Below are positions 2,365-64,000 of a stretch of DNA of 64,000 nucleotides, one piece after another. Within the stretch, counting starts at the first letter, position 1. Every line of letters starts with the position of its first letter. The stretch is from a virus. A model generated the notes under the pieces. It was not told the DNA's origin and searched no databases. It saw nothing but the letters and a program-made list of their open reading frames with translations. Both the position numbers and the translations under genes were made by a program. The stretch covers positions 33,581 to 97,580 of the IMG/VR virus record IMGVR_UViG_3300017917_002969, one strand, 5' to 3'.

Positions 2365-3174
2365 CTAAAAAATTTTTTTAACTTGTTCAAGAAGTGTTTG
2401 TTTTTCTTGTTTTGGCACTATTTGCTGTTTTGGTTTTTCAGATTCTTTAAAGATTCCTATAAAATAACTAGTTAATCTATGTCTTACGATTTCAGATTCA
2501 CTAAATTCTATTACTTCAACTCCTTCTGTTGGTGAATTTTTGACATTTGTAATTAAGCGTTCTAATGAACTATCTTCTTTGTGTTTTAAATCAATTTGTC
2601 CACTATCACCTAAGACTATTGTTTTAGTATCATTTGAAAATCTAGTTAGGAAAGTTTTAGCATTGTCGTGAGTTATATTTTGAAATTCATCCACGATTAG
2701 AATGGTATTTTCCCATGACCTACCACGAATTTGTCCAAATACTTCAAATTCAATTAAACCAGCTTCTATAAGTTTATTTGTATTTGTCTCACCAATTAAT
2801 TTATAAAACGCATCCATAAATGACATCATATAGAATTTAAGTTTTTCTTTCTCATCACCAGGTAATATACCCAATTCTTCGTTTCTTAGTTGAACGACAG
2901 ATTTGACCAACTTAATTTTCTTGTAAATATTTGGTTTACTCTTTAATAGTATTAGGGCTTCAGCTACACTTAACAACGTTTTACCAGTACCAGCTGGGCC
3001 AGAACATATTGTAACGTCATTGTTTTTAATTGAGTTTGTGAGCTTTTTTTGGGTTTCGTTTTTGTGTTTTATGTCAACTTTAATTTTTGACAAGAGGCCG
3101 TTATTAAATCCTGTAAATATGTCTTGTACAATTTCGTCCTCATCCTTTTTTTTAACAACACTTTTTTTTGCCAT
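2365..3174 (-). CDS. phoH: PhoH-like ATPase
   Basis: A 269-aa P-loop ATPase of the PhoH family, which is common in phages and related to the helicase domain of superfamily 1. Walker A is GPAGTGKT at residues 59-66 and Walker B is TILIVDEF at 157-164, followed by QNITHDNAKTFLTR and the VLGDSGQID motif that is characteristic of PhoH. The N-terminus is Lys/Asp-rich, and about 30 C-terminal residues are low complexity. An ATATTTAT motif lies 15 nt upstream of the ATG, so this gene probably starts its own transcript within the glycan module. The role in phage growth is unknown. Confidence 0.9.
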   Translation of the reverse strand: MAKKSVVKKKDEDEIVQDIFTGFNNGLLSKIKVDIKHKNETQKKLTNSIKNNDVTICSGPAGTGKTLLSVAEALILLKSKPNIYKKIKLVKSVVQLRNEELGILPGDEKEKLKFYMMSFMDAFYKLIGETNTNKLIEAGLIEFEVFGQIRGRSWENTILIVDEFQNITHDNAKTFLTRFSNDTKTIVLGDSGQIDLKHKEDSSLERLITNVKNSPTEGVEVIEFSESEIVRHRLTSYFIGIFKESEKPKQQIVPKQEKQTLLEQVKKIF

Positions 3175-3189
3175 GCAACTGTTTTATTA

Positions 3190-3197
3190 ATAAATAT
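3190..3197 (-). promoter_or_regulatory. ATATTTAT motif upstream of phoH
   Basis: Sense-strand octamer ATATTTAT, 15 nt before the ATG of phoH. It is the same motif found ahead of most virion genes in the window and is interpreted as a phage late promoter core. Confidence 0.4.
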
Positions 3198-3198
3198 C

Positions 3199-4134
3199 TC
3201 AACTTCTAACGTTCGGATAATTTTTAACAAACCAATCAATAGTTTTTTTAATTCCAACATCAAATGGAGTGAATTTATAGTCTGGCAAAAAAGTCTTAAG
3301 TTTACTATTATCACTTGGTTTTCTGAATTGACCATCTGGTTTAGTATCATCAAAAATTATTTCACCTTTAAAATCCATATACTCAACTATAGTTTCAACG
3401 GCTTTTTTTATTGAAATTTCTTCAGAATTTGAGATAATTATTGGTTCATTTTCATTATAACCATTCAAAATAGATAAAGAAATCTTAGCAACATCTTCTG
3501 AATAAATGAATTCTCTTAGTGGGTTTCCAGAACCCCATACAACCAATGGTGTATTGTCTCTTTTTGCTAAATAACACTTATGAATTAATGATGGTATCAC
3601 ATGACCATTTTTTAAATTAAAATTATCATTTGGGCCATAAATATTAGTTGGTATAACGCAAGTATAATTTAAACCATATTGTTCTTTATAAGCTCTAACT
3701 TGTACTTCAGCCATTCTTTTAGCATAAGCATAAGCATCATTAGAATAGTGTGGTGGTCCTAAATGTATTTTATTTTCAGTTAAAGGGTAATCTATTTTAT
3801 CTGGAAAAACACATGTAGATAAAAAAACAATTAACTTTTTAATATCATATTTTCTACAAGCTTCTATAACATTTGTATTAATCATAATATTATCATAAAA
3901 AAACTCAGCTTTATGATTCATATTACCACCAAGACCACCAACTTTTGCGGCTGTGTGTATAACCTTATCAACAACATTTTCTTTTTCTATATTTTTATCT
4001 GTATAAAAAGAAAAAATTTCATCAACAGATTTTTTATCTCTAAGGTCACAAGTATTGGTGTTGAGACTTACTAAATCTCCTTTAAATTGTGAACCAACTA
4101 AGCCATTTCCTCCAGTTATTAAAAGTCTACCCAT
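3199..4134 (-). CDS. fcl: GDP-L-fucose synthase
   Basis: A 311-aa extended short-chain dehydrogenase of the GDP-4-keto-6-deoxymannose epimerase/reductase family, which makes GDP-L-fucose from the product of Gmd. The NADP-binding GGNGLVG lies at residues 8-14, the catalytic STC at 106-108, and the YxxxK pair is Tyr135-Lys139. The later NGHVIPSL supplies the expected catalytic His. Length matches the bacterial family. The start codon lies inside the end of gmd (16-nt overlap), so the two are translationally linked and form a complete GDP-mannose to GDP-fucose route. Confidence 0.93.
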   Translation of the reverse strand: MGRLLITGGNGLVGSQFKGDLVSLNTNTCDLRDKKSVDEIFSFYTDKNIEKENVVDKVIHTAAKVGGLGGNMNHKAEFFYDNIMINTNVIEACRKYDIKKLIVFLSTCVFPDKIDYPLTENKIHLGPPHYSNDAYAYAKRMAEVQVRAYKEQYGLNYTCVIPTNIYGPNDNFNLKNGHVIPSLIHKCYLAKRDNTPLVVWGSGNPLREFIYSEDVAKISLSILNGYNENEPIIISNSEEISIKKAVETIVEYMDFKGEIIFDDTKPDGQFRKPSDNSKLKTFLPDYKFTPFDVGIKKTIDWFVKNYPNVRS

Positions 4135-56320: not shown

Positions 56321-57451
56321 ATGAAAATAAAAATAACAGAACAACAATATAAGAATATTATAATAAAGGAACAAGAAAGCCGTTTAAACGAAGCGTTTAA
56401 CTCCAATGCTGAATTGCTTGAAGAGGGTTGGAAAGAGGTTTTATTAGGTGTTGCAATGTTGTTAGGGGTTGGTCTGTCTGGACCAAATAAATCAATGGCT
56501 AGTAATGCTTTGACTGATGAAGCTACTATGGCTCAGATAAAAGCAACTTTGGAGGATGAAGATAAAACTAAAGAATTAGCAAAAGCTTTTGCTGAAAAAG
56601 GTATGAAAGACCCAAATTCTTTAATGGCAAAGAATGCACAAAAATTAGTTGATAATTTTAACAAATTAGCTAATGAAAACGATTTGACTTATAAAATAAG
56701 TAATAAGGTTGTTAATAATCTAGAAAGTCTTAGTGGTGAACTTGGTGTTGGTTATGCTTTGAAAAAAGCTGATATTAAAACAGACACAATTAAAGGTCAA
56801 GCTAAAACAAAAACCGTAATTGTTAAAGATACTATTGAAATGTCGTTTGGAAATGATAATACATTTATTACAGGTGGTTTTACACTTAGTTCAAATGGTG
56901 TTAATAACATAGTTAAAACCTTAGAAAGTATTAAAAACGCAAATGGTACTATAATTTCAGCTAAAATAGAATCATCAACAGATGCAGAAAGCGTACCAAA
57001 ATACAGAGGTGATGGTGATTTAACTGGTAATATAAAGTTAGCAACTCTTAGAACAAAAAGCATCGCTGATTTGTTACAGAATGTTGATGAGGATATTAAT
57101 ATTACACATAGAGAAATACCTGACAATGGTTCTGATGTAGTTAGTGCAAAACAATTTAAGAATGCAGCTTCAAACCCAGAAGAATTGGAGAAATTAAGAA
57201 AAATGACTGCTGATTTTAGATATGTTAAGTTAACATTAGTTGTTGAGTTTGAACAAAAAGTAGAAGAAGTTACCAAACCAGAAGAAGTTGTTAGAAACTA
57301 TAGATTTGAATTGGTTAAGGTTTTTGATGTTGATAAAGGAGATAATGGTGGAAGTAGTAGAATTAATAAAGGTGGTTTAGGAATTAGATTTCCACATAAA
57401 AAAGTTAGTTGTACTTCAGGCAAAAAAATAAAATGCTTTACTAAGTTTTAG
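56321..57451 (+). CDS. Protein with OmpA-like domain
   Basis: A 376-aa protein. The N-terminal MKIKITEQQYKNIIIKEQES resembles the start of the 338-aa gene downstream. Residues 37-55 (EVLLGVAMLLGVGLSG) are hydrophobic and may be a membrane or packing segment. Residues about 190-265 follow an OmpA-like peptidoglycan-binding pattern: FTLSSNGVNNIVKTLESI, IISAKIESSTDAES, and NIKLATLRTKSIADLL. It could anchor in the cell wall during DNA delivery. It lies between sheath and tube genes. Confidence 0.6.
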   Translation: MKIKITEQQYKNIIIKEQESRLNEAFNSNAELLEEGWKEVLLGVAMLLGVGLSGPNKSMASNALTDEATMAQIKATLEDEDKTKELAKAFAEKGMKDPNSLMAKNAQKLVDNFNKLANENDLTYKISNKVVNNLESLSGELGVGYALKKADIKTDTIKGQAKTKTVIVKDTIEMSFGNDNTFITGGFTLSSNGVNNIVKTLESIKNANGTIISAKIESSTDAESVPKYRGDGDLTGNIKLATLRTKSIADLLQNVDEDINITHREIPDNGSDVVSAKQFKNAASNPEELEKLRKMTADFRYVKLTLVVEFEQKVEEVTKPEEVVRNYRFELVKVFDVDKGDNGGSSRINKGGLGIRFPHKKVSCTSGKKIKCFTKF

Positions 57452-57465
57452 TAAAACGTTATCCA

Positions 57466-57479
57466 GTTCCACGTGGAAC
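57466..57479. promoter_or_regulatory. parS-like palindrome
   Basis: GTTCCACGTGGAAC, perfect 14-bp dyad, in a 34-nt gap between convergent genes. It agrees with the pattern GTTnCACGTGnAAC that ParB proteins recognise on chromosomes and plasmids. It is not followed by a T run, so it is not a normal intrinsic terminator in either direction. No parA or parB gene is in the window. Function is uncertain. Confidence 0.45.
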
Positions 57480-57485
57480 AAATAT

Positions 57486-57773
57486 TTAGAAATTTTTTTC
57501 TATTATGTCGTAAATTAAATTTACGATTTCACAAACACCAAAGGTTAGATTCCATTCACCATCTTTTAAATTCATTGATTCTATTTCTGAAATATATAAT
57601 TCATGAAGTTTATGATTATCTATTTCTAGATTGTTTTTTCTTAAAACTAATGTAATAGTGCTGCAAACTAAATGACTATCTACATATGTAATCCAGTCAC
57701 ATTGTTCAAGAATGTCATTTAATTGAGCATCGTAATGCTTTTTAAGCTCTTCTTTTGATAATGGTAGTTTCAT
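57486..57773 (-). CDS. Unknown small protein, 95 aa
   Basis: I do not recognise this family. The protein is mostly helical and charged (LSKEELKKHYDAQLNDILEQ), with three scattered Cys. It is the only gene on the minus strand between 53251 and the right end. It has an ATATTTAT motif 5 nt before the ATG, so a transcript would be nearly leaderless. Confidence 0.5.
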   Translation of the reverse strand: MKLPLSKEELKKHYDAQLNDILEQCDWITYVDSHLVCSTITLVLRKNNLEIDNHKLHELYISEIESMNLKDGEWNLTFGVCEIVNLIYDIIEKNF

Positions 57774-57778
57774 AATAT

Positions 57779-57786
57779 ATAAATAT
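57779..57786 (-). promoter_or_regulatory. ATATTTAT motif, 95-aa gene
   Basis: Sense ATATTTAT, 5 nt before the ATG at 57773. The closest spacing in the set. Confidence 0.35.
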
Positions 57787-57830
57787 ACTAATTTTTTTTC
57801 AAAAAATCAAGTAAATTTTTGAAATTCACC

Positions 57831-57838
57831 ATATTTAT
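57831..57838 (+). promoter_or_regulatory. ATATTTAT motif, distal copy for tail tube
   Basis: Sense ATATTTAT 50 bp upstream of a second copy and 85 nt before the ATG. It may be a tandem late promoter for the abundant tube protein or a chance match. Confidence 0.35.
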
Positions 57839-57880
57839 TTCATACACAGGGTGGATTATGTAAAAAAAGTAAACACCTGT

Positions 57881-57888
57881 ATATTTAT
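57881..57888 (+). promoter_or_regulatory. ATATTTAT motif, proximal copy for tail tube
   Basis: Sense ATATTTAT within TGTATATTTATTAA, 35 nt before the ATG at 57924. The long leader resembles that of the sheath gene. Confidence 0.5.
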
Positions 57889-57923
57889 TAATAAATAAAT
57901 AAAAAAAATTAAAAAAATAGAAC

Positions 57924-58412
57924 ATGGCTGATTTACTAATGAAAATGCCTTTGCCTTACGAACCTAAAAGAAAGAATCGTTGGCTTATAACATTCCCTTC
58001 TGACCTTGGGATTCAACAATGGTGGTTAGCTTCAGCTTCAAGACCATCAATTACACAAAATGAAACTGAAATTCCATTCCTTAATACATCTACATGGGTT
58101 ATTGGTCGTTTCACTTGGGAATCAATTGATGTGACTTTCCGTGACCCAATCGGTCCTTCTGCTTCTCAAGCAATTATGGAATGGGTACGTCTTCATTCAG
58201 AATCTATCACAGGTCGTCAAGGTTATGCAGCTGGTTACAAGCGTCCAGTAGAACTTGAAATGCTTGACCCAACTGGTGTTGTTGTTGAAAAATGGTTGTT
58301 GGATGGTACAATGCTTACGAACGTAAGTTTCGGTGACCTTTCAATGGATGACGATGCGATTGCGGAAATTACAGCAACGCTTAGGTTTGACCGTGCGATA
58401 CTTTTGTTTTGA
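57924..58412 (+). CDS. Tail tube protein, gp19-like
   Basis: A 162-aa tube subunit. RKNRWLITFPSDLGIQQWWL, then the ASASRPSITQNETEIPFLNT turn, WVIGRFTWESIDVTFRDPIG and MLDPTGVVVEKWLLDG, TMLTNVSFGDLSMDDD follow the gp19 fold order. Length equals that of T4 gp19 (163 aa). Codon usage looks more GC-rich and biased than the neighbours (for example CGT and GGT), which fits high expression. A long hairpin terminator follows. Confidence 0.92.
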   Translation: MADLLMKMPLPYEPKRKNRWLITFPSDLGIQQWWLASASRPSITQNETEIPFLNTSTWVIGRFTWESIDVTFRDPIGPSASQAIMEWVRLHSESITGRQGYAAGYKRPVELEMLDPTGVVVEKWLLDGTMLTNVSFGDLSMDDDAIAEITATLRFDRAILLF

Positions 58413-58450
58413 TTTCTTATTAAAATCGCTTTATCAAATACTTAACTTGT

Positions 58451-58505
58451 AAAGATTCTTTTAATATATTTGTTATTAACAACAAGTATATTAAAAGAAT
58501 TTTTA
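58451..58505 (+). terminator. Long AT-rich hairpin after the tube gene
   Basis: Arms ATTCTTTTAATATA (58455-58468) and TATATTAAAAGAAT (58487-58500) are a perfect 14-bp inverted repeat, with an inner TTGTT/AACAA stem in the loop, followed by a T-rich tail. It could be a terminator and could also protect the 3' end of the abundant tube mRNA. Confidence 0.68.
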
Positions 58506-58538
58506 TTTATGACCATTTACAAAAAAAATAAGAAACTT

Positions 58539-58546
58539 ATATTTAT
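58539..58546 (+). promoter_or_regulatory. ATATTTAT motif, tube paralogue
   Basis: Sense ATATTTAT within CTTATATTTATTGA, 34 nt before the ATG at 58581. Confidence 0.48.
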
Positions 58547-58580
58547 TGATAAAGTTATAACATTTATATAAACGTTTTAT

Positions 58581-59093
58581 ATGGCTAAAAAAAGTTCAAA
58601 TAAATTAGCTGATGCATCTAAAGAGATGTTTAAAAAGACAATAAAACAAGCTAGTGAAATTGGTAAGGGGATTGATGGAAGTATTGGAAAAATATACGAT
58701 AGTGAAGCAAATAAAGATTTAATTTACTACGAACCAAAAAAGAATAATAGATGGGTTCTTGATTTTCCGTCTGAACTTAACATACCAAACTGGGTGGTTA
58801 AAAATATAGATAGACCAGCATATCCCTTTAATAGTGGAGAAATGGTTCATATTTCATTATACGACCCTATTGTTCCATCTACTACTAAATCAATTGTTAA
58901 ATTTTTAGAAAATCAAAAACCATTTACATTTACTTTAAATATATTGGACCCAACTGGTATTGTTGTTGAAAAATGGGAATTTAGTGGATGCTTAATAACA
59001 AATGTTAGGTGGTCAGATTTAGGATATGATGACGATTCCCCAAGCACTTTATTAGTTGGAATAACATATAGCAAAATAAAGATTAATGAATAA
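58581..59093 (+). CDS. Tail tube paralogue, possible gp54-like tube initiator
   Basis: A 170-aa protein with the same fold as the main tube subunit: KKNNRWVLDFPSELNIPNWV, NIDRPAYPFNSGEMVHISLY, LDPTGIVVEKWEFSGCLITN, VRWSDLGYDDDSPST. A basic N-terminal extension of about 48 residues replaces the short start of the tube protein. In T4, gp54 is a tube-like protein that starts tube assembly on the baseplate, and this paralogue is a natural candidate. It overlaps the next gene by 8 nt. Confidence 0.75.
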   Translation: MAKKSSNKLADASKEMFKKTIKQASEIGKGIDGSIGKIYDSEANKDLIYYEPKKNNRWVLDFPSELNIPNWVVKNIDRPAYPFNSGEMVHISLYDPIVPSTTKSIVKFLENQKPFTFTLNILDPTGIVVEKWEFSGCLITNVRWSDLGYDDDSPSTLLVGITYSKIKINE

Positions 59094-60348
59094 TAGACCA
59101 AACGTTATCCCTACAAAGGAACAAAAAGAAGCTGCTGAAGAAAGAAATAAATTAGCAGAATTTGAGGCTGAGAAAGCTCAGGCGACACAAGAAATTTACA
59201 CCAACGCTAAATTTTCACAAGATTTATCAAATAATCATGTGGATGCTGTTGAGTTAATGAGAAGAAGGACAGAAGCACAACTTCAGATGAAAAAAGAAGT
59301 TGGTATTGTTCAAGACCAATTTTATGCTGAACAGAAACCAACAAGACCATTGACAAAAAATGAAGAAGAAATCATTGAGATTAGGAAGAGAGCTGAAGAA
59401 CAAATAAAAGTTCGTGATGAGTTGATGGCCAGAAACGCTGAACAAATACAAAAAAATCAAAAACAAACTGAAGAAGTATCAGTAAAAAAAGAGATACCAA
59501 AATATATGCAAACAACACCAAGTTCACCAAATCAACAACAAAATAAGGTTGTTGAAAATTACGGAAAAAATCCGTCTAATATTAATCCTTATATTGTTGA
59601 ATTAAGTCAACCAAACTTTAATTCTCCATTTGATGTGATACCGTTGCCTTCTGAGGGTAAGCTTTATGGTATGAAAAAACCTAGTGTTAGAGTATCGTTT
59701 ATGACAACTGCTGATGAAAATATCCTTACAAGTCCTAATTTGCTTAAGAGTGGACAATTTTTACCAATTTTAATTAATAGAAAATTGTTAGAACCAGAAA
59801 TAAGATATACTGATTTACATATTGGTGATAGGAATGCAATCATGATTTGGTTAAGGGCTACTGGTTATGGTGAAATGTATCCAGTAACCATGCTTGATGA
59901 AAATAATGAAGTGTTTGAAACTGAAATAAATCTTAATGATTTAAAATACAAGAAATTAGGTGCTGAACCAGATGCTGAAGGATTATTTGATTTCAGATTT
60001 CCATTATGCAAAGCTGTTATTAAATTTAAACTATTAACTTGTGGTGATGTAGATGATATTGAAAGTAGAATTGAGGCTGAAAAGGAAGCTGAATTACCAG
60101 TCAATAATACTTCAACTTATATGTTAGAAAAACAGATTGTAGAAATCAATGGTTCTAGGGATAGAAACATTATCAAAGAATTTGCTAGCAATATCAGAAT
60201 TCGTGATGCAAAAGAATTTAAAGATTATGTTGAACAAATAGAAAGCGGAATCGACTTAAATATCGAGGTTAGGACTCCAGGGGGTGGTTCCATAAAAACC
60301 TTTCTTCCACTTAACATCAACTTTTTTTGGCCTAACTTCGGATTATAA
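59086..60348 (+). CDS. Baseplate or tail-chaperone protein, gp26-like
   Basis: A 420-aa protein. Residues 1-165 are charged and coiled-coil-like (EERNKLAEFEAEKAQATQEI). From about residue 185, FDVIPLPSEGKLYGMKKPSV, RVSFMTTADENILTSPNLLK, LHIGDRNAIMIWLRATGYGE and the terminal PLNINFFWPNFGL match the T4_baseplate type (gp26-like), which occupies the place of tail assembly chaperones in T4-like phages. A poly-T stretch close to the stop opens the possibility of a +1 frameshift into the next ORF. Confidence 0.62.
   Translation: MNNRPNVIPTKEQKEAAEERNKLAEFEAEKAQATQEIYTNAKFSQDLSNNHVDAVELMRRRTEAQLQMKKEVGIVQDQFYAEQKPTRPLTKNEEEIIEIRKRAEEQIKVRDELMARNAEQIQKNQKQTEEVSVKKEIPKYMQTTPSSPNQQQNKVVENYGKNPSNINPYIVELSQPNFNSPFDVIPLPSEGKLYGMKKPSVRVSFMTTADENILTSPNLLKSGQFLPILINRKLLEPEIRYTDLHIGDRNAIMIWLRATGYGEMYPVTMLDENNEVFETEINLNDLKYKKLGAEPDAEGLFDFRFPLCKAVIKFKLLTCGDVDDIESRIEAEKEAELPVNNTSTYMLEKQIVEINGSRDRNIIKEFASNIRIRDAKEFKDYVEQIESGIDLNIEVRTPGGGSIKTFLPLNINFFWPNFGL
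60322..60329 (+). promoter_or_regulatory. Candidate +1 frameshift site
   Basis: The codons TTT TTT TGG near the end of the gp26-like gene form a run of seven T followed by G. A shift of +1 on TTT would give TTT GGC and continue in the frame of the next ORF with FFGLTSDYKIPLLEEIYICM. The position, 20 nt before the stop, is typical of chaperone frameshifts. Not tested. Confidence 0.35.
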
Positions 60349-60355
60349 GATTCCT

Positions 60356-60607
60356 TTGTTAGAGGAAATTTATATCTGTATGCAACACCTTAAAGGGGTT
60401 AGTTATTCAGATGTAATGACAATGCCAACTTATGAAAGAAGATTTTTCTTAGGTTTGCTTACAAAAGATGCAAGAGAGCGAGAGGAAAAAATGGAGGAAA
60501 TGCGTCAGAATTACCAAAATAACAATGCTAGAGGAACCAAAACAACTCGTATAAGTGGTGATGCGCTTAAATCGAGATTTAATAGTGGTGATATATCTCT
60601 TCAGTAA
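60356..60607 (+). CDS. gp51-like small tail chaperone
   Basis: An ORF whose conserved part begins LLEEIYICMQHLKGVSYSDV and continues MTMPTYERRFFLGLLTKDAR. This is like gp51-type baseplate assembly proteins of T4-like phages, which pair with gp26-type proteins. The only codon in front is TTG at 60356; the first ATG (60380) would cut away part of the conserved helix. The frame is open upstream into the end of the gp26-like gene, so it may be made by frameshift or from the TTG. It lies before the tape measure region. Confidence 0.6.
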   Translation: MLEEIYICMQHLKGVSYSDVMTMPTYERRFFLGLLTKDAREREEKMEEMRQNYQNNNARGTKTTRISGDALKSRFNSGDISLQ

Positions 60608-60608
60608 T

Positions 60609-60634
60609 AAAATGCCCATTATTTGGGCATTTTT
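60609..60634 (+). terminator. Terminator after the chaperone pair
   Basis: AATGCCCA, 5-nt loop, TGGGCATT and a T-rich tail. It separates the chaperone pair from the next gene. Confidence 0.75.
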
Positions 60635-60644
60635 CTTTTATTGG

Positions 60645-60652
60645 ATATTTAT
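60645..60652 (+). promoter_or_regulatory. ATATTTAT motif, 338-aa gene
   Basis: Sense ATATTTAT within TTGGATATTTATTTA, 15 nt before the preferred ATG at 60668. Confidence 0.5.
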
Positions 60653-60667
60653 TTAAAAACAAATAAG

Positions 60668-61684
60668 ATGAAAATAATCGTTAACGAACGTCAATATAAT
60701 TTGATTAAAGAGTTTATCGAGGAGGTTAAAAAAAAATCATATCCTAGAGGGGTTATGGTTAAATTGGGTAGACACATTAACAATTTATTGGGGAATATTT
60801 CACAAGGGAAGGAAACTGAATTTATACTAGCTAATAATGTTAAAGTTGTTTTAAAATGTCTTAGTGACGATAATAACATTTATAAATTTCAAGTTATTGA
60901 AGATAAGAATAACATATTTGGTGGAGTAGTTAATTTAGCAATTGAAATAAATCCAGGTAATGGTGACCCAAATAGACCTGAAGATGAATATAATAAAAAT
61001 AGCAAAATAATAAAATCAGGTCAAAATCCAAACAACTATACTTTGGTATTTACTAAATTAGTTGGTTCAAAAAAAACTATTGAGTTACAAAATATTGTAA
61101 GTGCAAAAGTTGTCACAGAACCAGAAGAACCTCAACCAGAAGAACCAGAAGAACCACAAGAGCCTACTGATGATAAAACTAACGAAAAAGATTTAACATA
61201 TGATGCTAAGGCTGCGTATGATAGAATACTTAGTGACCCTAAATTAAAAGACGCTTTTTATAAACAACCAAGTTTTTGGGAATTATTTAAAGCTGAGTTA
61301 ACTGGTAAAAAACCTAAAGGTAGCGGAATAATAACAGCGTTAGATATTCTTGATAAGTATGATTTAAGACGTTATGATGAAACAATAGGTGCTAAATTTA
61401 TTCCAAACCAAAAAGTTACTATTAAATTTTTAGAAGATTATAAAATTAATTTTGATAAGAACAAAACAATTACTTTTGATAAAAATACTGAGTATACTTT
61501 AAAAGTAAGACCAAGAAAAAGCGGAAAACAAATTTTGGATGGTGCAAATTATTACATTGTAGTAAGTGGTGAAGTTAATGATGAAAATCTTCCAGATACT
61601 TTTTACACAGAAAGAGGGAGGATAAAATATAAGTTCACTGTTATAGAAGGAGAAAAATCACCTGGTTATAAACCAAAAATTTAA
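60668..61684 (+). CDS. Unknown virion-region protein, 338 aa
   Basis: The start is set at 60668 because an upstream TTG frame would begin inside the terminator hairpin, while 60668 follows an ATATTTAT motif at the usual distance. The N-terminus MKIIVNERQYNLIKEFIEEV resembles that of the OmpA-like protein upstream. The middle has a Glu/Pro-rich linker (EPEEPQPEEPEEPQEP). The C-terminal half (DPKLKDAFYKQPSFWELFKA, then strands such as KVTIKFLEDYKINFDKNKTI) looks like a small folded domain. Function is not recognised; a tail-associated role is likely. Confidence 0.6.
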   Translation: MKIIVNERQYNLIKEFIEEVKKKSYPRGVMVKLGRHINNLLGNISQGKETEFILANNVKVVLKCLSDDNNIYKFQVIEDKNNIFGGVVNLAIEINPGNGDPNRPEDEYNKNSKIIKSGQNPNNYTLVFTKLVGSKKTIELQNIVSAKVVTEPEEPQPEEPEEPQEPTDDKTNEKDLTYDAKAAYDRILSDPKLKDAFYKQPSFWELFKAELTGKKPKGSGIITALDILDKYDLRRYDETIGAKFIPNQKVTIKFLEDYKINFDKNKTITFDKNTEYTLKVRPRKSGKQILDGANYYIVVSGEVNDENLPDTFYTERGRIKYKFTVIEGEKSPGYKPKI

Positions 61685-61696
61685 ATTTAATAATGT

Positions 61697-64000
61697 ATGG
61701 CATTGTCTGATGAACAAAGGGAAATAATAAAAGCTTTAGAAAGAGAAGCTAAACTAAGAAGAGAAATTTCATCTAGTATTGAAAGCTATGTAGAAGCTGT
61801 TAAAGATTCTAAAAAACTTTCTGAAGAAATTGCAAACCTTAATAGATTAGAAGGCGAATATCAACAAAAAATTACGGCTAGTTTAGCAGCGGGTGACCAT
61901 CAAGCTTATATTGAAAATTTAAAAATAGTCTCAGCGTTACAAGAACAAAGCGCTTTATTAACTAAAAACAAAAAGATTTTAGATGACACCATAAAAAGTG
62001 TTGATAAATATAAGCTTTTAGTTGATAGAGGACTAACAAAAAGCATGATTGGTCTTGGTAAAGCCATATCTAATTTACCAAATATTGTTGAAGGCGGTTT
62101 AAATAAATTAAGAGGGTTTGGTTTGTTTGAAATGGATAAAGCAATTAGAACCACTGCTTTAAATATTGGTTTAGCTGGCAAGCAATCCGATGCATTAAGA
62201 GTTAATATTAAATCAGCAGCAGAGAATTCAATCATGTTTGGTGCTAATATGCAAGAAATTGCACAATATCAAGCGCAATATAGTGAAGAAACAGGTCGTG
62301 CATTAATGCTTGGTCAAAAAAGTTTAGAATCAATAGCTGAAATTGCTAAAGGAACTGGTTTGGGTTCTGAGGGTGCCGCACAAATGGCTGCAAGTTTTGA
62401 GCAACAAGGTATATCAGCTGAAAGAACCAAGGATTTTGTTGAAGCAGCAGTTAATAAGGCTGCAAAAATGGGTCTTAACTCTTCTAAGGTTATTAAGAAC
62501 ATGCAATCCAATATGAAATTATTGAACAGATATAATTTCAAAGGAGGTGTTAAAGGTCTTCAAAGAATGGCTGAGACAACAACCAAATTGGGAATTGATA
62601 TGGATTCTGTTTCTGGAATGGCTGATAAATTATTTGACATTGAAGGTGCTGTTGAAATGTCAGCTCAATTGCAGGTAATGGGTGGAGCATGGGCTCAAAT
62701 GAGCGACCCTTTTAAGTTGATGTATATGGCTCGTAATGATATGGCTGGTCTTACTGAAGAAGTCGCTAAAGCTGCTGCAACAACTGCTACATTTAATAGC
62801 AAAACTGGTGATTTTGATATTTCTGCTATGCAAATGAACATTCTTAGAAAAGTAGCAGAAGCTACTGGTGTATCTCTTGAAACTTTGACTACTGCTGCTA
62901 AGAATGCTGCTAAGTTTACAAAAATAAAAGGTCAAATATCATTTAATGCTGACCCAGAAAGTAAAGAATTTTTAGAGAATACTGCACAACTTGATAAAGA
63001 AGGTAAAGCGTATATTGAAATGGTTGTTGATGGAAAATCAACAAAAAGGTATCTAAATCAATTAGATAATACACAATTAAAAAATTTAATGGCTGAAGAT
63101 AAAAAACTTAAAGAGAGAGCAGAAGCTGCAATGACATTTGATGATACATTAAAAGCAGCAATTGATAGATTTAAAATGGCGTTATTACCATTGATTGAAA
63201 GTTTTGGTAAAGAAGGTGGGTTAATAGATGGTTTACAAAAGTTTATTAAAAAAGCAGAAACAGATGGTTGGTTTAAAAAAATTGGAGAATTTGCTGAAAC
63301 TGTTGGTAAATTAATAAACACAGTTGGTAAGTTTATTTTAGAGTGGCCTAGAGCAACATTAGGTTTATTATTATTACCAAAAGTTCTTGAATTGGCTTTT
63401 GGTGCATATAAGTGGTATGAATATGGTAAAATATTAGGACAAGGTTTTTTATCCACAACTGGTGGTGCTGGTGGTGCTGGTGGTTTTGGAACTAGAAATA
63501 TGTCTGCTATGAATCGAATGGGTTTAGGGACTATGGGTAAATTTGGTGCTAATTTTAAAGGGGCGCTAGGTTCAGCTGGAACAATTGCTGGTGGTGTTTT
63601 ATCTGGTGCTATAGGAGGATATAGTGAATATTCTGAACAAAAAGAAAAGGGTAAAACTACTTCAGAGGCAGTTGGTAGAGGTTTATTAAAAGGCGCTGGA
63701 GCTGGTCTTGGTGCTTGGGGAGGCGCTGCGGCTGGTGCTTCATTGGGGGCTTTTGGTGGGCCTTTAGCACCAGTTACTGTACCGTTAGGTGCATTGATAG
63801 GTGGTGGATTAGGAGCTTTGGGTGGAGGTTATTTTTCTGATTTAGATACATATGGTGTAAAAGACGGTATATTTGGTGGGACACAAAAAAGGGCGATAAT
63901 GCAAGGTGGTAGAATAACACCAATTGATAATAAAGATGACATACTTGCAATGAAACCTGGAGGTATTGTTGATAATATGATGAATAAAAACACTGGTCCA
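61697..64000 (+). CDS. Tape measure-like protein, partial at right edge
   Basis: An open frame of 768 codons to the window end. The ATG at 61697 follows the previous stop by 12 nt; the ATG 4 nt earlier closes at once. The N-terminus is coiled coil (LSDEQREIIKALEREAKLRR). The middle is helical and repetitive, and later come a hydrophobic segment (TLGLLLLPKVLELAFGAYKW), Gly/Ala-rich stretches such as AGLGAWGGAAAGASLGAFGG, and RITPIDNKDDILAMKPGGIV, which is common near the end of tape measure proteins. It probably sets tail length or is a hub protein. Confidence 0.75.
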   Translation, partial: MALSDEQREIIKALEREAKLRREISSSIESYVEAVKDSKKLSEEIANLNRLEGEYQQKITASLAAGDHQAYIENLKIVSALQEQSALLTKNKKILDDTIKSVDKYKLLVDRGLTKSMIGLGKAISNLPNIVEGGLNKLRGFGLFEMDKAIRTTALNIGLAGKQSDALRVNIKSAAENSIMFGANMQEIAQYQAQYSEETGRALMLGQKSLESIAEIAKGTGLGSEGAAQMAASFEQQGISAERTKDFVEAAVNKAAKMGLNSSKVIKNMQSNMKLLNRYNFKGGVKGLQRMAETTTKLGIDMDSVSGMADKLFDIEGAVEMSAQLQVMGGAWAQMSDPFKLMYMARNDMAGLTEEVAKAAATTATFNSKTGDFDISAMQMNILRKVAEATGVSLETLTTAAKNAAKFTKIKGQISFNADPESKEFLENTAQLDKEGKAYIEMVVDGKSTKRYLNQLDNTQLKNLMAEDKKLKERAEAAMTFDDTLKAAIDRFKMALLPLIESFGKEGGLIDGLQKFIKKAETDGWFKKIGEFAETVGKLINTVGKFILEWPRATLGLLLLPKVLELAFGAYKWYEYGKILGQGFLSTTGGAGGAGGFGTRNMSAMNRMGLGTMGKFGANFKGALGSAGTIAGGVLSGAIGGYSEYSEQKEKGKTTSEAVGRGLLKGAGAGLGAWGGAAAGASLGAFGGPLAPVTVPLGALIGGGLGALGGGYFSDLDTYGVKDGIFGGTQKRAIMQGGRITPIDNKDDILAMKPGGIVDNMMNKNTGP

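Follow-up and report, generated by a model that had tools for sequence, protein, structure and literature searches.

The DNA analyzed here is a 64,000-nucleotide stretch of a virus genome, referred to throughout as the window (bases 33581-97580 of the 97,580-base virus record IMGVR_UViG_3300017917_002969), in which a gp26-like gene overlaps a second open reading frame in the +1 register. Very probably, the two frames are one tail-assembly-chaperone gene that yields two products through a +1 slip at UUU UUU UGG. Sequence comparison reveals, at the junction of the two frames, a conserved site, selection on the +1 reading, few usable start codons, and kinship with the homologous gene pair of cyanophages and of phage T4; from these we infer the slippage itself, its direction (+1, not −2), its rate, and the chaperone role. 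The features of the junction, all on the + strand, are as follows.

59086..60348, + strand: gp26-like 0-frame gene, predicted short tail assembly chaperone (TAC-N, 'G' product), 420 aa
60296..60607, + strand: open +1 frame, 103 aa, overlapping the gp26-like gene at 60296-60345
60322..60330, + strand: predicted shift site TTT TTT TGG, conserved among relatives
60323..60604, + strand: putative 'T' domain in +1 (FFGLTSDYKIPLLEEIYICM...), helical, from an alignment of 40 sequences, profile comparisons, ratios of nonsynonymous to synonymous change (pN/pS), and a structure model
60346..60348, + strand: 0-frame stop TAA of the short product
60356..60358, + strand: TTG, the sole start-like codon in +1 between the slip and ATG 60380

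The 0-frame 3' end of the gp26-like gene, the conserved core of which spans approximately 59593-60345, consists of the codons AAC (60319), TTT (60322), TTT (60325), TGG (60328), CCT, AAC, TTC, GGA, TTA, and TAA. The original prediction, made by a model from the letters of the window alone, held that the +1 frame is open from the first gene into the second and that a TTT TTT TGG run lies 20 nt before the stop. The frame is open as described (60296-60607), reads FFGLTSDYKIPLLEEIYICM across the junction as had been written, and contains the run at 60322-60330; the distance was misstated, the T-run occupying 60322-60328 and its last base lying 18 nt, not 20 nt, before the 0-frame stop.

According to the proposal that the junction is a shift site, the majority of ribosomes would stop at 60346, yielding the short form, that is, the gp26-like core. 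A fraction of ribosomes would slip by +1 at UUU UUU UGG (60322-60330), the P-site peptidyl-tRNA-Phe presumably leaving its UUU for the UUU that overlaps it by two bases while UGG occupies the A site. Decoding would resume at GGC in the +1 frame, adding 92 residues (60329-60604) to give a long form comprising core and T domain. By analogy with the G/GT proteins of phage lambda, the core would coat the tape measure protein, the T domain would recruit tail tube subunits, and the short and long forms would both leave the finished tail.

To place the junction among its relatives, we collected loci from first searches (five IMG/VR loci and eight phage records, of which five records were used, the other three being further Flavobacterium immuto phage records), from an alignment search (80 further loci, the best 80 of at least 597 confirmed), from a search in which the close group of the window served as query (80 loci with 53 distinct junctions), and from genome contigs (11 loci, 10 analyzed; L201, cut inside the gene, was left out). 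The +1 side altogether comprises 182 loci and 145 distinct junctions, window included, of which 143 were used (L077 and L081 were left out); 83 distinct junctions used are referred to as the first sets. The +1 frame is open across the gp26 stop in 10/10 junctions of the first searches, and an in-frame TTTTTTT is present in 76/80 loci of the alignment search. Conservation of the T-run and open frame in relatives, which had been proposed as a check, is observed in the close group (TTTTTTTGG and T domain in +1 in 80/80 loci), in the genome-contig loci (a run of at least seven T's with the +1 frame open in 10/10 analyzed), and in most of the wider family. YTT_T occupies the second of two homologous codons in 137/143 distinct junctions by script; L087 and L193, which have eight T's with YTT_T one codon earlier, were added by eye for a total of 139/143, and the remaining four junctions (L007, L009, L010, and L011) have TTT_T or TTT_C. 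L057, L084, and L088 have, respectively, CTTTTTT, TTCTTTT, and TTTCTTT at the shift site, and the contigs of L027, L072, L080, and L081 end within the T domain. The site of the +1 group is TTTTTTTGG or TTTTTTTAC; Microcystis phage Mel-JY01 has TTTTTTTGG, the same as the window, and Flavobacterium phage immuto has TTTCTTTGG. Across the 83 junctions of the first sets, the site begins 5 to 8 codons ahead of the gp26 stop.

Comparison with control ORFs (further + strand ORFs of these loci, each 100 aa or longer) shows that a +1 frame that is open for 18 nt or more upstream of the stop and for 45 codons or more past it is found for 79/80 gp26-like genes vs. 6/187 controls, and that an in-frame TTTTTTT within the last 15 codons is found for 71/80 gp26-like genes vs. 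0/187 controls. We conclude that the open +1 frame and the T-run at the end of the gp26-like gene are far beyond chance. The exact 15-mer AACTTTTTTTGGCCT has at least 120 matching stretches in IMG/VR; it lies in frame 0 of a gp26-like ORF in 118 of the 120 listed, and the T domain follows in +1 in 116 of these 118, the contigs of the other two breaking off 6 and 23 bases beyond the gp26 stop. Because this search was by DNA alone, the tie between site and domain is independent of the protein searches, though some contigs are shared.

The sequence downstream of the gp26 stop exhibits selection in the +1 frame. For the 135 bases after the stop in 25 independent pairs (L027, L072, and L080, with contig ends, left out), pN/pS is 0.164 for the +1 reading, against 1.99 and 1.44 for the two alternative frames. 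Both site codons are TTT in 135/143 junctions, and Phe elsewhere in these genes is TTT in 565/746 cases, an excess to which dual coding contributes and which comes from related sequences, the binomial value being no true probability. Start codons are scarce. In the first sets, the first ATG, GTG, or TTG after the slip is at least 15 codons downstream or absent in 72/83; 32/83 lack any such codon in the part of the open +1 frame that precedes the slip, and 27 of these also have no downstream start within fewer than 15 codons; and in the close group 18/53 junctions have no start before the slip. Stops in the +1 frame upstream of the junction in relatives had been named as something that would speak against a shift. 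Such stops occur at most 12 nt upstream of the slip in 22/83 first-set junctions, and they have the opposite sign: starting at the slip, the frame continues open beyond the gp26 stop in 83/83, and is therefore needed only from the T-run onward.

Homologous junctions in other phages show the same gene pair with a different frame relation. In S-PM2, gp26 ends in SFFA* with T_TTT_TTC, and the −1 frame continues into gp51; cyanophage-like loci found in IMG/VR via S-PM2 gp26 have T_TTT_TTC and the −1 frame in 80/80. T_TTT_TTY with an open −1 frame is found in RaK2, Atu_ph07, XacN1, RAS14, and LR756511 (5/5), and T_TTT_TTY with the domain in −1 in 6/8 further phages (pf16, ACP17, VH7D, OLIVR6, PA5oct, and SCTP-2); VP-1 has GTT TTT CGC and an open −1 frame, and the eighth of these phages is IME-SM1, the record of which lacks one base relative to its relatives. 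On this side, pN/pS is 0.097 for the −1 reading, against 1.76 and 2.57 for the two alternative frames (25 cyanophage-type pairs, with L012-L016 left out), and folding 3' of the site has a mean z of −1.76, below −2 in 25/59, S-PM2 having a 14-bp hairpin with z −4.63. In T4, gp26 ends in FFELL*, the −1 frame leads into gene 25, and a T domain was found in neither of the shifted frames of gp26; T4 gp51 is a gp26-like core followed by a C-terminal T-like stretch in one frame.

Profile comparisons link these proteins stepwise. T4 gp26 matches T4 gp51 (blastp E 1.7e-6 in a one-to-one comparison; hhalign 96.8), the cyanophage T domain matches the T4 gp51 C-terminus (hhalign 96.7), and the +1 T domain matches the cyanophage −1 domain (hhalign 96.5); the +1 T domain compared directly with the T4 gp51 C-terminus gives 1.0, which is not significant. 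For the +1 T domain, kinship with T4 gp51 appears only via the cyanophage domain and concerns the C-terminal part of gp51; the description of the second protein as gp51-like is apt for that part only, T4 gp51 itself being core plus domain. All six relatives scanned (6/6) match phrog_150, and 5/6 (L019, L034, L009, L014, and L016) pass the cut-off of Pfam PF12322, T4_baseplate; the window gp26-like protein matches neither phrog_150 nor PF12322. Its core has 26-35% identity to +1-side relatives outside the close group.

The gp26-like/T-domain pair is best read, by analogy, as a tail assembly chaperone with a short form and a frameshifted long form. T4 gp26 and gp51 are listed as hub assembly chaperones, and gp51 is needed for assembly and absent from the particle, according to the available part of PMC3004832. 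The core model has a pLDDT of 90.7, and many of its closest predicted viral structures are named baseplate hub proteins, that of SP-15 included. When solved structures were realigned with VIA-align, the top chain among 983 was 2ob9, the tail assembly chaperone of HK97 (Z 4.9, with an rmsd of 4.3 over 80 residues); the list contains no T4 gp26 or gp51 chain and so says nothing either way about them. The analogy with G/GT drawn in the original prediction appears to hold, with weak structural support.

The same fusion of core and T domain can be reached in other ways. Slippage by −2 on the T-run would give the identical reading frame with one extra Phe, and re-pairing of a single tRNA after a −2 move is possible in 140/143 junctions, the window among them. 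We regard this as unlikely: −2 requires a two-base move, and it fails to re-pair in L084 (TTC TTT T), L007, and L010, where +1 re-pairs, single-tRNA +1 re-pairing by a Phe or Leu tRNA being possible in 143/143. Slippage of RNA polymerase on the seven T's, giving an mRNA one U shorter or two longer, would act on the seven-T run seen in 75/83 first-set junctions and 80/80 close-group loci, but seven T's are short for efficient polymerase slippage, and the other 8/83 junctions have TTTCTTT (twice), CTTTTTT, TTCTTTT, TTTCTAT, TTTTTTA, TTCTTTC, or TTTTTTC with the +1 frame still open, which makes this explanation very improbable. An error of sequencing or assembly that splits one real gene has next to no likelihood. 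Homopolymers are error-prone, and the record of IME-SM1 (L204, 2101-2400), which probably contains a sequencing error in the shift region, lacks one base relative to 14 other matching records, for which reason it was rejected as an independent +1 case and not counted; yet the same run and frame relation recur in 80/80 close-group loci and 10/10 genome-bin loci.

The remaining alternative, which we consider highly improbable, is that two separate proteins are made, the T domain being translated from TTG 60356 or a later ATG with coupling to the gp26 stop. A small ORF of that kind is annotated in some records, and in 9/53 close junctions (window aside) a start-like codon first occurs 11 codons past the slip, as it does in the window. 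Conserved residues precede such starts, however. In the alignment of 40 sequences, chosen by hand for spread, F2 is invariant and F1 and L4 are near-invariant, all ahead of any start; in the T domain model (60323-60604; pLDDT 79.0, pTM 0.45, a moderate model) the first helix comprises residues 6-22, with TTG 60356 at residue 12 and ATG 60380, the first +1-frame ATG, at residue 20. A start at TTG 60356 would lose FFGLxxxY and cut the first helix, and the claim that a conserved helix lies upstream of the first ATG is borne out to the extent of this model. Moreover, no sequence resembling a Shine-Dalgarno (SD) sequence is present in the 15 bases upstream of TTG 60356, the +1 frame of L030 has no start codon at all, and T4 gp51 has the domain fused in frame.

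Several observations weigh against a +1 shift in a tail chaperone gene. At the shift site, the A-site codon is a sense codon (among 137 junctions, UGG in 113, UAC in 23, UAU in 1, and never a stop), so that an A-site stop codon is absent as a stimulator; a 3' fold is not conserved in the +1 group (mean z −0.68, below −2 in 15/59 loci), with no 3' structure in the window (z −0.75), L034, or L030; and SD-like 4-mers precede the site in 29/145 (20%) vs. 9.7% at control positions, a weak excess only, and an SD-like stimulator was rejected. Among relatives, L077 (around 3254), although within the +1 group, has TTC TTC instead of the T-run and its T domain in −1, and L356 (1/80 in the close group) has a premature stop in the T domain, its +1 ORF (2674-2856) ending 34 codons past the gp26 stop at an otherwise normal junction. 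Starts are commoner in the close group, where only 8/53 junctions have none either before the slip or at most 15 codons after it, and the window itself has TTG 60356 at 11 codons after the slip. As regards the chaperone role, Z 4.9 is modest and may reflect a common arrangement; Foldseek with the core model finds nothing in the PDB at E ≤0.001 and places the HK97 chaperone at rank 46 (E 4.0); neither the core nor the T domain of the +1 side matches T4 gp26 or gp51 significantly when profiles are compared directly; and genetic studies support T4 gp26 in the baseplate hub, as stated in the available part of PMC3004832, which clashes with a chaperone that departs.

Two further properties of the junction were noted. 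The +1 sites mostly have CCU after UGG or UAC. A −1-frame stop just after the T-run, which had seemed to be selected in the close group, was dropped as a candidate because it is rarer over all junctions (95/143) than at control positions (0.81).

A broader proposal, to which we assign an even chance, is that evolution can switch the shift direction of one homologous chaperone gene. In cyanophages and jumbo phages, the Phe-Phe T-run would serve for −1 (T_TTT_TTY, in many cases followed by a 3' hairpin); in a large, mostly uncultured clade, the same run would serve for +1 (YTT_T). In a quick tree of 53 gp26 cores, with rows chosen by hand for spread, junction columns removed, and L077 counted as −1, direction needs at least three changes; the well-supported branches force only one change, and several rows are long-branched. 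If the proposal is true, the +1 form would represent a shift signal of a new class, acting without a stop codon, strong SD sequence, or RNA structure. The junction is recognizable across very divergent phages as +1, as −1, and as two genes (T4), and one can therefore ask how a signal changes direction with the protein outcome kept. Few programmed +1 frameshifts are known from phages and bacteria. No report of a +1 shift in a T4-like tail chaperone was found in the literature searched, subscription papers being mostly outside the search. The +1 direction in the tail chaperone of the large, mostly uncultured clade appears to be new, and tail-chaperone frameshifting in T4-like phages has already been published.

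The 15-base signature also provides an aid to annotation. In the annotated +1-side phages (L006, L008-L011), the T domain is a small hypothetical ORF in Mel-JY01, immuto, and SP-15 (3/5) and has no feature in LIS04 and GXN1 (2/5).

The features that flank the junction in the window are as follows.

57924..58412, + strand: tail tube protein (phrog_4542, E 9.8e-27)
58581..59093, + strand: second tail tube-like protein (phrog_4542, E 1e-8)
60609..60633, + strand: terminator-like hairpin directly 3' of the T domain, the sole one in 57400-61800 (shuffles average 1.4, so weak)
61697..64000, + strand: long ORF continuing past the window end, tape measure candidate from position and size alone, with no family match

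The ORFs at 57924-58412 and 58581-59093 are consecutive tail tube-like paralogs. An ORF without a clear family (60623-61684) lies between the T domain and the putative tape measure ORF; it shares with the ORF at 56321-57451 the motif MKI.I.E.QY near the start, in the former case from an internal ATG. L008 and L009 have an annotated tail tape measure gene at the place of the window's long ORF, and in L009 the gp26-like gene is flanked by annotated tail tube and tape measure genes. The gp26-like protein of the window has a Q/N-rich N-terminal extension of approximately 170 aa (59086-59592), which is present in L001-L004 and absent from L006-L010. In L199 (CP070664.1, locus 3001-3934), a gp26-like gene with a +1 T domain is found in a 2.85-Mb record titled as a chromosome of candidate division WOR-3.

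The systems closest to the window gene are the tail chaperones of T4-like phages, of lambda, and of Halorubrum virus HSTV-2, together with the prfB frameshift. The abstract of Vladimirov, Gautam and Davidson 2022 (Virology 566:9-15) is said to report frameshifting in several T4-like groups. The frameshift signals of T4-like TAC-N (Vladimirov 2022) are cited as −1 in the available part of PMC12846349, and some T4-like phages carry two chaperone genes, the first short and the other long (Vladimirov 2022, cited in the available parts of PMC10885494 and PMC12846349). As far as these excerpts go, the window gene appears to be like T4-like TAC-N in gene family and place, in having a predicted short and a predicted long product, and in having a T-rich site close to its 3' end; certain T4-like phages have two genes instead, the long gene being core plus C-terminal domain, and the T4 gp26/gp51 arrangement found here by sequence agrees with this published view of short and long genes. 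Unlike in the T4-like TAC-N genes, the signals of which are cited as −1, the frame relation in the window group is +1, at TTTTTTTGG or TTTTTTTAC. The statement that a programmed +1 shift would be unusual for a T4-like phage therefore stands for the direction only, because frameshifting of this gene pair is already known in T4-like phages as −1, on the evidence of the same excerpts.

The gene order tail tube, chaperone, tape measure is that of lambda G/GT and probably that of the window locus, and the short form accompanied by a frameshifted long form in lambda is predicted for the window gene as well. Unlike lambda G/GT, which shifts by −1 (PMC5009743, available part), the window gene would shift by +1; the two are likened without sequence comparison. 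Cases of +1 frameshifting in phages and prokaryotes named in the sources, as far as available, are RF2, Listeria PSA, and the archaeal virus HSTV-2. The tail chaperone frameshift of Halorubrum virus HSTV-2 is described as 'very likely +1' in the available part of PMC5009743, and the window gene is like it in being a candidate tail-chaperone +1 frameshift in a myovirus, HSTV-2 being an archaeal virus. RF2 sites are CUU_U, with UUU_U in a minority of species, in the same part of PMC5009743. The proposed shift is like that of prfB (RF2, CUU_UGA) in that it would involve a YUU_U P-site slip to UUU; prfB uses an A-site stop codon and an upstream SD sequence, whereas the window group has a sense A-site codon and no strong SD sequence.
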